Shown here: positions 3,794 to 6,663 of the stretch, piece after piece | How positions within the stretch are numbered: the first letter of the stretch is position 1 | Layout: every line of letters begins with the position of its first letter | Origin: Thiogranum sp. | GTDB lineage: Bacteria; Pseudomonadota; Gammaproteobacteria; DSM-19610 | Assembly: GCA_030148915.1 (NCBI GenBank) | Contig: JASBSN010000102.1 | Span: 1-38,059, forward strand | Reading direction: 5' to 3' | Length of the DNA: 38,059 bases | The notes under the pieces: generated by a model | What the model saw: the letters and a program-made list of their open reading frames with translations, nothing else | What the model was told of the DNA's origin: nothing | Databases searched by the model: none | Made by a program: the position numbers and the translations under genes

Positions 3794-4213
3794 ATGAAAC
3801 GGATGGTCTGCCTGACTGTCTTCGTCACAATGCTCGCGGCAACAGACGCAACGGCGCGCGATATGGACGACGAGTACGCCGTATTCGGCGTAGGCGCCGA
3901 GGATTGCGCCACTTATCTGGTCGCACGCGACCGGGCCGGGGCCGCCGAGCGCTGGTACCACCACTGGCTGAGCGGCTATCTGACGGCGGTCAACAACGCC
4001 GGGGCCAGCACCTTTAATATTCTCGGCGAAAAAAGCCTGGCAGACATTCTTGACTGGCTGGAAGGCTATTGCGCGGCAAACCCCAATACCAATTTCGCCA
4101 ATGCCGTCGCCGGGATGGTGACATTGCTCTACGCTGACCGACAGAATATTGCGCCTGGGAAAACCGGCGGCTGGAAGAAATTCACCGCGTCTCCGGCCTC
4201 TCCCCAACCCTGA
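3794..4213 (+). CDS. Small secreted protein, HdeA-like or similar helical fold
   Basis: 139 residues with an N-terminal signal peptide (MKRMVCLTVFVTMLAATDATA), so probably periplasmic. After the signal two cysteines remain, in EDCATYL and EGYC, which could form a disulfide as in HdeA-type acid chaperones. The pattern HWLSGYLTAVN ... DWLEGYCAANP ... FANAVAGMVTLL resembles small exported proteins annotated as HdeA/HdeB-like or left hypothetical. No catalytic motif is seen. The ATG at 3794 is chosen because GGTGGAG lies 6 nt upstream; a GTG at 3782 would lie inside that site. The last 32 bp overlap the convergent lipoprotein gene. Confidence 0.75.
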   Translation: MKRMVCLTVFVTMLAATDATARDMDDEYAVFGVGAEDCATYLVARDRAGAAERWYHHWLSGYLTAVNNAGASTFNILGEKSLADILDWLEGYCAANPNTNFANAVAGMVTLLYADRQNIAPGKTGGWKKFTASPASPQP

Positions 4214-4742
4214 CCGTCGCATAGTCGCCAAACGCCTCGCGCATTTCCGGCAAGCGGATCGGCGTCGCTAAGGACGGCACGTCGAACGCCCCCGAGCACA
4301 CCAGCGTTACACGCCGGTGATGTTGAGATGCCAGGGTGATATGGAACTGCCACGCCATCATGGAGGCATCCCCACCGCCCAGCGCCATACGGGCTGCCAC
4401 CCTGCGGGGCAACCCAAGGCTGACGTCGGTCTGGTTCAGCCAGACTCTTTCCACCGCCCACCTCCCCGGCCCGAGCGTTTGCGCCACCGGCAGCGGATCG
4501 CGTAACAGCACATAACAAAAGGGCGCATATTGGTCGGTGGCCGCATAACCGCTGGTTTTTCCGTGTTGCAGGTACACACGGGCCAGGCCAGCCGGTATCA
4601 CCAACTCGCGCAGCACTTCGATTTCATCCCCCGGCCCGACGGGGCTGGAGTAAAAGCCGTCACGCGGCGGCATCGGCTGGCAGGCCGCCAGCAGCACCAG
4701 CCCCAACGCGAGTCCAAGTTTCACGCATATTCTCATACGCAT
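4182..4742 (-). CDS. Putative lipoprotein, unknown function
   Basis: 186 residues with a lipoprotein signal: basic start MRMRICVK, hydrophobic core, and lipobox LLAAC with lipidated cysteine C21. The following Q-P-M lacks aspartate at +2, so outer-membrane sorting is likely. The mature part has a compact beta-rich pattern (IPAGLARVYLQHG, YAPFCYVLLRDP, ARMALGGGDASMMAWQFHITL) seen in uncharacterised gammaproteobacterial lipoproteins; no enzyme motif is visible. AGGG lies 5 nt before the ATG at 4742. Its 3' end overlaps the 3' end of the convergent gene at 3794. Confidence 0.75.
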   Translation of the reverse strand: MRMRICVKLGLALGLVLLAACQPMPPRDGFYSSPVGPGDEIEVLRELVIPAGLARVYLQHGKTSGYAATDQYAPFCYVLLRDPLPVAQTLGPGRWAVERVWLNQTDVSLGLPRRVAARMALGGGDASMMAWQFHITLASQHHRRVTLVCSGAFDVPSLATPIRLPEMREAFGDYATVRVGERPETR

Positions 4743-4877: not shown

Positions 4878-5768
4878 TCAGCTCAATTCGTCCGAGGCGC
4901 CACGGCCGGCCAGCCCGCCCCATTGATGCAGGGCCAGTCCGCCCAGAATAAAGGTGGTCCCCACCCACACGCTCGGCACAATACGCTCGTCGTTCAACCA
5001 GTGACCCAGCAGCAGCGCCGTGACCGGGGTCACCAGCGTGACCAAATTCACCTTCACCGCCCCTACCCGGCCGAGCAAATAGTAATACCCGAAAAAACCC
5101 AGCACCGAACCGAACAAAGCCAGATAGGCAATGGAAAATCGCGCCCGATCCGGCAACTCAGCCGGCCAGGTGCCATCGAACAGAAACCAGGTCAGGACAA
5201 ACGCCGGCACCGCGACACTCAACCCGCCACCGGTCACCGCCAGCGCCGCCAGCCCGCTCGACAGGCGCTTGACCCACACCGCACTGGCCGCATGCAGGAG
5301 CGCCGATAACAGCACCGCGAGTATGCCCGCACCGAGGTGCGCCCCACCCCCGGCGCTAGCGGAAAAAATCACCGCCAGACCCAGTACCCCGAGCAGCAGA
5401 CCGGCCAGTGCGCGCCCGGAAAGCTTCTGGTCTACCAGCCAGAGCACGGAGAATACACTGGTCAGGAGCGGCGAGAGGCCGAACAGCACCGCGATCCACC
5501 CCGACGGGACATACTGCGCGGCCCAATAGACCAGCCCCATGGCGCCGTAGATCGCAAGGCCGGCGGCCAGATAGGCGCCGCGCGCGCGTGCATGCCAGGG
5601 CATCTCCACACCGCTGATGCGTATGGTCAGCAAACAGAAGATCAGACCGAGCGTCATACGCGCGGTGACACCGAAAAGAAAACCTCCCCCCTCGCTGCTC
5701 CATTGGATCGCCAGCGGTGTGGTCGACCAGATTAAAATGACCCCCAAAAATGCCGCCGGTACCGACAT
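4878..5768 (-). CDS. EamA/DMT-superfamily transporter
   Basis: A 296-residue inner-membrane permease with about ten hydrophobic segments arranged as two EamA repeats (first half from AAFLGVILIWSTTPLAIQ; second half from GILAVLLSALLHAASAVWVK). Proteins of this family export or import amino acids, nucleotides or other small metabolites; the substrate cannot be told from sequence. The start at 5768 (MSVPAAFLG) is chosen because the first membrane segment begins here and GAGG lies upstream. The frame stays open upstream, but that extension would translate through a strong terminator hairpin. The gene therefore has an intrinsic terminator in its own leader, about 24 nt before the start codon, which suggests attenuation control. 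Confidence 0.88.
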   Translation of the reverse strand: MSVPAAFLGVILIWSTTPLAIQWSSEGGGFLFGVTARMTLGLIFCLLTIRISGVEMPWHARARGAYLAAGLAIYGAMGLVYWAAQYVPSGWIAVLFGLSPLLTSVFSVLWLVDQKLSGRALAGLLLGVLGLAVIFSASAGGGAHLGAGILAVLLSALLHAASAVWVKRLSSGLAALAVTGGGLSVAVPAFVLTWFLFDGTWPAELPDRARFSIAYLALFGSVLGFFGYYYLLGRVGAVKVNLVTLVTPVTALLLGHWLNDERIVPSVWVGTTFILGGLALHQWGGLAGRGASDELS

Positions 5769-5792
5769 GCTCTGCGCCTCTGATGGCTGACG

Positions 5793-5832
5793 AAAAAAAA
5801 AGGCCGCAGTCCTTGCGGTCTGCGGCCTTTTT
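5793..5832 (-). terminator. Intrinsic terminator in the EamA leader (attenuator)
   Basis: On the minus strand AGGCCGCAG (5828-5820) pairs with CTGCGGCCT (5809-5801) around a 10-nt loop; flanking A and T residues extend the stem, and nine T follow. This is a textbook Rho-independent terminator. It ends only about 24 nt before the EamA start codon, leaving no space for a promoter downstream. Transcription of the permease must therefore pass through it, unless it merely ends the upstream unit and the permease has an unseen promoter. Confidence 0.85.
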
Positions 5833-5990
5833 GGAAAACTACGGGTGTTCGGATTTAGCGGGTTTCCTCCAGGCCACAGGCGGCTGCAATCAGCCATGCG
5901 CGCATGCGCAGGACGTGCAGACAAAGCGTGAAAGCCGGGTAACCGTTAACGTTCATAGTGACAACGAGTCTGCAACAGGCAGACTCGCGG
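5833..5990 (-). promoter_or_regulatory. EamA leader with antiterminator sequence
   Basis: The minus strand between mug and the attenuator contains CTGTGGCCT (5879-5871). It can pair over 9 bp, with one G-U pair, with the 5' arm of the terminator (AGGCCGCAG, 5828-5820), so the two structures are mutually exclusive. Other local hairpins are GGCTG-ATTG-CAGCC and the palindrome GCGCATGCGC. The layout is that of a transcription attenuator or riboswitch; the signal sensed is unknown, and no known riboswitch class was recognised. Confidence 0.5.
5855..5956 (-). CDS. Possible leader peptide of the EamA attenuator
   Basis: A 33-codon reading frame (starts MNVNGYPAF, ends GLEETR) ending 22 nt before the terminator stem. 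The antiterminator CTGTGGCCT lies inside its codons for Cys-Gly-Leu, so a ribosome translating it would cover that sequence. It has one Trp and two Cys codons but no run of a single regulatory codon. No good ribosome-binding site precedes the ATG. It may equally be a chance frame inside a non-coding leader. Confidence 0.3.
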   Translation of the reverse strand: MNVNGYPAFTLCLHVLRMRAWLIAAACGLEETR

Positions 5991-5996
5991 TGTCAA
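5967..5996 (-). promoter_or_regulatory. Possible promoter with operator-like palindrome
   Basis: A consensus -35 TTGACA (5991-5996) is 18 bp from a weak -10 CAGACT (5967-5972). A perfect 9-bp inverted repeat, CGAGTCTGC with spacer AACAG (5965-5987), sits in and around the spacer and -10, where a repressor could block polymerase. In RNA the same repeat is a hairpin after mug without a good T-run, so it could also be a weak terminator. Confidence 0.4.
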
Positions 5997-6069
5997 CTGC
6001 CCACTGCCGCCGACGCCTGTACCCGGACGTCGCGCCGACGCCAGCGTGCCCGGCGAGGGCCGCTGGCGC

Positions 6070-6663
6070 TCAGCCCGGCATACCCAGATGATCGGCGAGC
6101 AGGTTATACCAGCCGACCAGATCCGCCAGGGAAAAGGCGGCGTTGGCGGGGCTGGAGTTGGGCGTGACAAAGCACTGCGTCGAGCCGATATGCAACCGTT
6201 GCAAACCCCAGTCGTCCCCGCCCCCATGCCCGCCGGTATGGCGGACAAACTGCTTGAAGGCCACCTTGCCGTGAAACCAGGCGCACTGTGGTTGATAGCG
6301 CTCCAACAGCGCCAGCAAGCGCATGGCCCCCACCCGGTAATCGGCGGCGCGCAGTTCGGCGCAGCCGCGGGTGGGGCGTTTGACCAGATCGGTGAAGCCC
6401 ATCGCCCGGTATTTGAACAGCGCATCCATCGCCTGCGGACCGGGCTCGATCGGCTCCGGCAGCAAGCGACTGGCATTGAGCGCCGGCCAGAAACGGTTGC
6501 GCGGGTTGGCAAAGTAGAACCCGGCCGCGACGGATGGCACAGAGGGATTCAGCCCGATGCAAAGCAACCGCAATCCAGGCGCGAGGTAATCGGGGAGCGT
6601 TTTCAGACAACCCTCGCCGGAAGCGCTATAGCGGCATTTCCTCGCCTTTGCGCACCGGTCCAT
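6070..6663 (-). CDS. mug: G/U mismatch-specific DNA glycosylase (Mug/TDG family)
   Basis: A DNA-repair glycosylase that removes uracil or thymine mispaired with guanine. The family motif 1 appears as GLNPS (GINPG in E. coli Mug), followed by AAGFYFANPRNRFWPAL (GTGFPFAHPANRFWK in E. coli); motif 2 appears as TPNSSPAN (PNPSGLS in E. coli). The start is uncertain. The ATG at 6663 gives 197 residues and overlaps gloB by 38 nt. A CTG at 6606 with GAGGG upstream would give MKTLPDYLAPGLR, closer to the usual N-terminus. It is the last gene of a VOC-gloB-mug run. Confidence 0.87.
   Translation of the reverse strand: MDRCAKARKCRYSASGEGCLKTLPDYLAPGLRLLCIGLNPSVPSVAAGFYFANPRNRFWPALNASRLLPEPIEPGPQAMDALFKYRAMGFTDLVKRPTRGCAELRAADYRVGAMRLLALLERYQPQCAWFHGKVAFKQFVRHTGGHGGGDDWGLQRLHIGSTQCFVTPNSSPANAAFSLADLVGWYNLLADHLGMPG

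Follow-up and report, generated by a model that had tools for sequence, protein, structure and literature searches.

Ribosome-mediated transcription attenuators are best known from the trp and his operons of enteric bacteria, where a control codon lies just upstream of the antiterminator arm, antiterminator and terminator exclude each other, and the stop codon is placed so that a ribosome that has finished translation blocks the antiterminator. In Sinorhizobium meliloti, the transcript of the trpL leader (rnTrpL) begins with the ATG of its upstream open reading frame (uORF), and the leader holds Trp codons and a terminator (PMC7298713). That leader controls trpE(G), and its uORF, of 14 codons, includes several Trp codons in a row. 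A different principle is represented by TnaC, which works through Rho and for which Asp16 and Pro24 matter as well. Its short leader peptide contains a single important Trp (PMC8429421). Finally, antibiotic-induced attenuators (leaders of the ermD, yxjB, and msrD type) also combine a uORF with a premature terminator, before a resistance or export gene.

Here we describe the leader of an EamA-family transporter gene (eamA) in a 38,059-nucleotide stretch of Thiogranum sp. DNA, called the window below. Among the numerous EamA pumps, few have been assigned a substrate. On the evidence of the sequence comparisons, we favor the reading, with a probability of roughly 0.77, that this leader is a ribosome-dependent transcription attenuator built like those of trp and his but leaderless, standing before a putative exporter. 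With the enteric attenuators it shares the three properties named above; it differs from them in its leaderless uORF, in a Trp codon that is usually single and lies in an Arg-rich stretch, in a weak protector hairpin, in a stop codon placed inside the antiterminator loop, and in controlling a putative exporter rather than a biosynthetic operon. It resembles S. meliloti trpL, from a different class of bacteria, in its Trp codon, its terminator, and an ATG predicted to lie at the 5' end. A single important Trp is common to TnaC and the eamA uORFs; the latter, however, are nearly devoid of acidic residues around Trp, have variable C-termini, and lack the conserved Asp and Pro downstream of Trp. 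The likeness to the antibiotic-induced leaders is one of layout. In the open literature searched, we found no description of EamA/DMT leaders or of leaderless attenuators on exporters; to the extent of that search, no earlier account covers the type of gene controlled, the one Trp that most of these uORFs carry among Arg residues, a stop codon in the loop of the antiterminator, or the recurrence on a single transporter family.

Elements of the eamA leader in the window

The initial annotation of this DNA had placed a hairpin with nine T about 24 nt before the eamA start codon, a 9-bp alternative pairing with the 5' arm of this hairpin, and a 33-codon frame containing the pairing segment, and each of these proved to be present at the positions given. 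The predicted intrinsic terminator, AAAAAGGCCGCAG-ACCGCAAGGA-CTGCGGCCTTTTTTTTT, consists of 13 unbroken pairs, A-T included, and nine T, and its T run ends 24 nt upstream of the eamA ATG (5768-5766). The segment CTGTGGCCT forms nine pairs, one of them G-U, with AGGCCGCAG (5828-5820). The complementarity between uORF and terminator arm in the window has a z of -2.6 against dinucleotide shuffles and -2.5 against codon shuffles, and the fold of 5793-5900 reaches -41.6 kcal/mol (z -3.2 versus shuffles). One arm is common to the terminator and the antiterminator helix, so that the two structures are mutually exclusive. The initial annotation did not contain the promoter-like site, the in-frame Trp codon, and a second helix, P1, which flanks the stop codon of the uORF (Table 1). 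When the window leader and others are folded, P1 stacks on the antiterminator helix, and the stop codon falls in the loop of the resulting hairpin.

Table 1. Features of the eamA leader and the adjoining gene in the window.
Feature	Positions	Strand	Details and basis
Promoter-like site	5967..5996	-	TTGACA 5996-5991, 18-nt spacer, CAGACT 5972-5967
uORF, predicted leaderless or with a 3-nt UTR, 33 codons, MNVNGYPAFTLCLHVLRMRAWLIAAACGLEETR	5855..5956	-	ATG frame; layout in relatives; coding signal
In-frame Trp codon, candidate pause codon	5894..5896	-	W in 68/73 leaders; kept also in the second class
Antiterminator 5' arm CTGTGGCCT	5871..5879	-	pairs with 5828-5820
Apical helix P1, 5' arm GGAAAC, final uORF codons	5862..5867	-	partner 5839-5833; z -6.4 in the swap test
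Apical helix P1, 3' arm GTTTTCC	5833..5839	-	swap test of P1
Possible protector hairpin over Trp codon and antiterminator 5' arm	5875..5900	-	MFE fold of 5793-5900; weak average effect in relatives
Predicted intrinsic terminator hairpin and T9	5793..5832	-	fold; sequence kept in genus and class
EamA-family transporter gene, 296 aa, putative regulated gene	4878..5768	-	Pfam PF00892, E 8e-31

An Rfam search of the window leader returned no family at gathering score and only sub-threshold matches, to terminators. For the eamA product, NCBIfam gave no equivalog over the cut-off, and no relative was found in the PDB by sequence. Upstream of the leader lie a UDG-superfamily (mug-like) gene and then a gene with a metallo-beta-lactamase fold.

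Some further observations were made in this region. A perfect 9-bp inverted repeat, CGAGTCTGC-CTGTT-GCAGACTCG (5987-5965, minus strand), lies between and over the -35 and -10 elements of the putative uORF promoter; the nearest relatives keep part of it only, and it may be a chance repeat or perhaps an operator. A 113-codon frame opposite the leader (5750-6091, plus strand) has no family match and is probably spurious. Downstream of eamA, a lipoprotein-like gene (4182-4742, minus strand) gave no match to Pfam or NCBIfam; it adjoins eamA in eight related loci too.

Recurrence of the layout and coevolution of its helices

EamA has orthologues in 103 of 369 genomes, scattered over Gammaproteobacteria. 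Upstream DNA was taken from 125 eamA copies and screened by a script for a terminator hairpin together with an ORF of 18-50 codons ending at most 70 nt from it. One layout, with the order promoter-uORF-terminator-eamA, was present in 113 of these 125 regions, the putative promoter being of the TTGACA type and the predicted terminator carrying GGCCRCAG. As some genomes occur in two collections, identical leaders were removed for statistics; the non-redundant set comprises 73 leaders with uORF identity below 68%. The uORFs are mostly 26-38 codons long, and their stop codons lie mostly 19-35 nt before the terminator stem. In 67 of the 73 leaders, the uORF ATG follows the start of a TTGACA-like hexamer by 35-37 nt, a spacing not forced by the search, which allowed 25-50 nt. 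With this spacing the start codon should coincide approximately with the first transcribed base, making the uORF leaderless; in the window the spacing is 40 nt, and the predicted 5' UTR is therefore about 3 nt.

A phylum-wide search, in which 29 loci were read, reached a second class of Pseudomonadota. The same layout was seen in 19 of the 27 loci from this class and in both remaining loci (L189 and L202), which are gammaproteobacterial. In the second class, the terminator arm ACGGCCAYGGG and the antiterminator CCTGTGCGCCGG differ from their gammaproteobacterial counterparts in matching fashion. The leader accompanies eamA while the upstream neighbor gene changes between groups. As a hint to the substrate, the gene neighborhood offered no neighbor conserved across groups and no adjacent trp genes. 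The genome of the window was scanned for further TTGAC-N-ATG leaders; of the 35 matches, 30 were inspected, and none was a second copy with a terminator.

The uORF contains a segment, mostly 10-30 nt before its stop codon, that complements the terminator 5' arm. Over 99 leaders, the duplex energy of the arms gave a mean z of -1.21 (s.e.m. 0.11; dinucleotide and codon shuffles). Because relatedness could inflate this mean, we used a species-swap test in which, once row and column means had been subtracted, each uORF with its own arm was set against every mismatched pair; it covered the 73 leaders with uORF identity below 68%. The pairing of antiterminator and terminator arm gave z -6.3, and P1, formed by the uORF end and the bases just before the terminator, z -6.4, both without tree correction. 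Of the 20 cases in which the arm is not CRCAG, 14 show a corresponding change in the partner (expected, 8.5 by swapping and 5.0 by shuffling). The arms of P1 change together, from GGAAAC/GTTTTCC in the window to GAATTC/GAATTC or TTGATG/CATCAA in other loci. The alternative pairing proposed by the initial annotation accordingly covaries in homologous leaders, within Gammaproteobacteria and between classes. As in other ribosome-mediated attenuators, a predicted intrinsic terminator stands between uORF and gene, and the conserved putative antiterminator excludes it. GGAG- or GAGG-like purine runs occur in the last 24 nt of the uORF in 51 of the 73 leaders, against 28.6 in shuffles; these runs, at 5870-5864 (minus strand) in the window, are part of P1 and possibly also a ribosome pause signal.

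Trp codon and coding signal of the uORF

A Trp codon is found in 68 of the 73 uORFs: one in 44, two in 22, and three in 2, with none in 5. Several Trp codons beside a Trp-related gene, as expected of a Trp leader, are not the pattern of this family. When TGG was counted 33-60 nt before the stop codon, 63 occurrences were in frame, and 18 and 2 in the other frames. Between the start of the Trp codon and the antiterminator arm downstream lie a median of 15 nt (IQR 12-22), roughly what separates the A site of a ribosome from its leading edge. The distance from Trp to stop varies, being mostly 11-19 codons.

We simulated the folding of the RNA before the 3' arm of the terminator emerges, removing the bases covered by a ribosome. 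In this simulation, the terminator 5' arm was paired upstream at 0.65 with a ribosome at Trp (0.49 for a shuffled leader), at 0.19 with a ribosome at the stop codon, and at 0.57 with no ribosome. According to the model, the control codon would thus be spaced, as in an attenuator, so that a ribosome on it frees the antiterminator. The real upstream region lowers pairing in the ribosome-free state by 0.09 (s.e.m. 0.02) relative to shuffled sequence, which hints at a weak protector hairpin; given this weakness, untranslated leaders would also be expected to read through.

Translation of a short uORF in the leader, another property of attenuators, is predicted from its pattern of substitution. The synonymous fraction in close gammaproteobacterial pairs is 0.32 in frame versus 0.28 and 0.26 in the other frames, and in the second class 0.49 versus 0.23 and 0.17 (11 pairs), so that the coding signal is clear in the second class and weak in Gammaproteobacteria. 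The second-class uORFs keep a GWLVARR core, and the peptides diverge freely between gammaproteobacterial families. Around Trp, Arg occupies positions -4, -3, and -2 in 34%, 26%, and 26% of cases, position -1 is hydrophobic in 74%, position +1 is Arg or Leu in 47%, and acidic residues make up 0-4% from -12 to +7. The excess of Arg is confined to the reading frame and extends over about nine codons before the antiterminator. Rare codons (CGA and CTA) were enriched near Trp in 34 loci, a lead only. Cys sensing, considered from the CGLEET ending of the uORF in the genus, was rejected, as the Cys codon is a by-product of the antiterminator sequence TGYGGCCT and close relatives have Arg in place of Cys.

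Proposed mechanism and its alternatives

In the mechanism that we propose, the transcript would begin at about the first base of the uORF of about 33 codons, which would be translated as a leaderless message. A ribosome would pass an Arg-rich stretch with the Trp codon, then the antiterminator 5' arm, and then the stop codon in the loop of the antiterminator hairpin. If it paused around Trp, its front edge would stop just short of the antiterminator arm, and this arm would remain free to pair with the 5' arm of the terminator, with P1 stacked on top, so that RNA polymerase would continue into eamA. A ribosome at the stop codon would instead cover part of the antiterminator arm and of P1, the terminator would fold, and transcription would end before eamA. 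The pause may be caused by low levels of charged tRNA-Trp (or tRNA-Arg) or by a stall dependent on the nascent chain or on an inhibitor.

Some features count against an attenuator. Amino-acid attenuators usually carry several control codons, whereas here there is mostly one, and 5 of the 73 leaders have no Trp. Modeling of attenuators indicates low sensitivity where control codons form a low fraction (PMC1183508). The weak amino-acid constraint on the gammaproteobacterial uORFs and the weak protector hairpin also argue in the same direction, and inducing an exporter during amino-acid shortage has no obvious logic. As there is mostly one Trp, with an excess of Arg and a loosely constrained peptide, we favor the class of mechanism and, for its signal, leave the choice between charging of a tRNA and a stall through the nascent chain or an inhibitor. 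These two options differ only in the sensor, and for this reason our estimates for them overlap with that for the attenuator as a whole. For classical attenuation by charging of tRNA-Trp (or tRNA-Arg), in which shortage would induce eamA, for example if EamA imports the amino acid or a precursor, speak the layout, equal to the trp/his scheme, and the one nearly invariant codon, rightly spaced and kept in the second class; the single Trp codon of most leaders and the lack of trp genes nearby weigh against it, as does an ordinary-looking Trp leader, with a uORF ending in DWRWW, that precedes trpE in this genome. We consider it a real but minority possibility. We give the same standing to an arrest peptide, whereby the Arg-rich, Trp-containing nascent chain and a small molecule (the exporter substrate or a ribosome inhibitor) would stall the ribosome and induce eamA through an unchanged RNA switch. 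The non-random residues around Trp, with almost no acidic ones before it, the Arg excess in frame only, and the strong conservation around GWLVARR are consistent with this idea, and for an efflux pump, control by an inducer-dependent stall would make sense; the free divergence and weak synonymous bias in Gammaproteobacteria and a variable Trp-to-stop distance unlike that of TnaC-type peptides count against it. A wider version of this idea, in which the leaderless uORF encodes a new type of nascent-chain sensor, is tentative; in at least two classes of Pseudomonadota, this sensor would detect what the EamA pump transports (a metabolite or ribosome inhibitor) directly within the ribosome and switch on the pump gene through antitermination.

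The explanations that dispense with a ribosome-operated switch fare worse. That the uORF is a gene for a small functional protein, followed by a terminator of its own, with eamA expressed by constant leakage only, is improbable: the uORF is conserved and coding in the second class, but the peptide is loosely kept in Gammaproteobacteria, and a plain terminator would not require antiterminator arms in and after the uORF to coevolve with it. The suggestion of the initial annotation that a ribosome or a ligand could choose between the structures held for the ribosome, with the uORF running through the antiterminator; a small-molecule riboswitch working without translation would account for the terminator/antiterminator pair, but start codon, reading frame, Trp codon, and alternative arms are what is conserved, with neither a conserved unpaired, aptamer-like core nor an Rfam match, making it very unlikely. 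Equally remote is the reading that the hairpin simply terminates the upstream mug/UDG operon, an objection raised at the outset, and that its alternative pairing is due to chance. The genes are co-directional and the terminator is strong, but the promoter-like site lies downstream of mug, the leader follows eamA rather than mug, and the alternative arms coevolve.

Through a conserved attenuator that reports ribosome behavior, the signal could be sought directly by genetics, and the signal would in turn hint at what EamA transports. If the proposed attenuator is correct, these leaders would also make up an extensive natural family of attenuators with leaderless uORFs, in which the coupling of leaderless translation to transcription could be studied.

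Two side observations concern single loci. The 17-codon frame ending in DWRWW (MIFLVETQQNDHDWRWW), which lies about 195 nt upstream of trpE (L149, G000:C8) and overlaps the end of the gene before it, resembles an ordinary trp leader peptide. In a member of the genus (G011), the regions upstream of eamA at L030 and L019 keep the terminator without a recognizable uORF of the usual type and constitute a natural test of the terminator acting alone.
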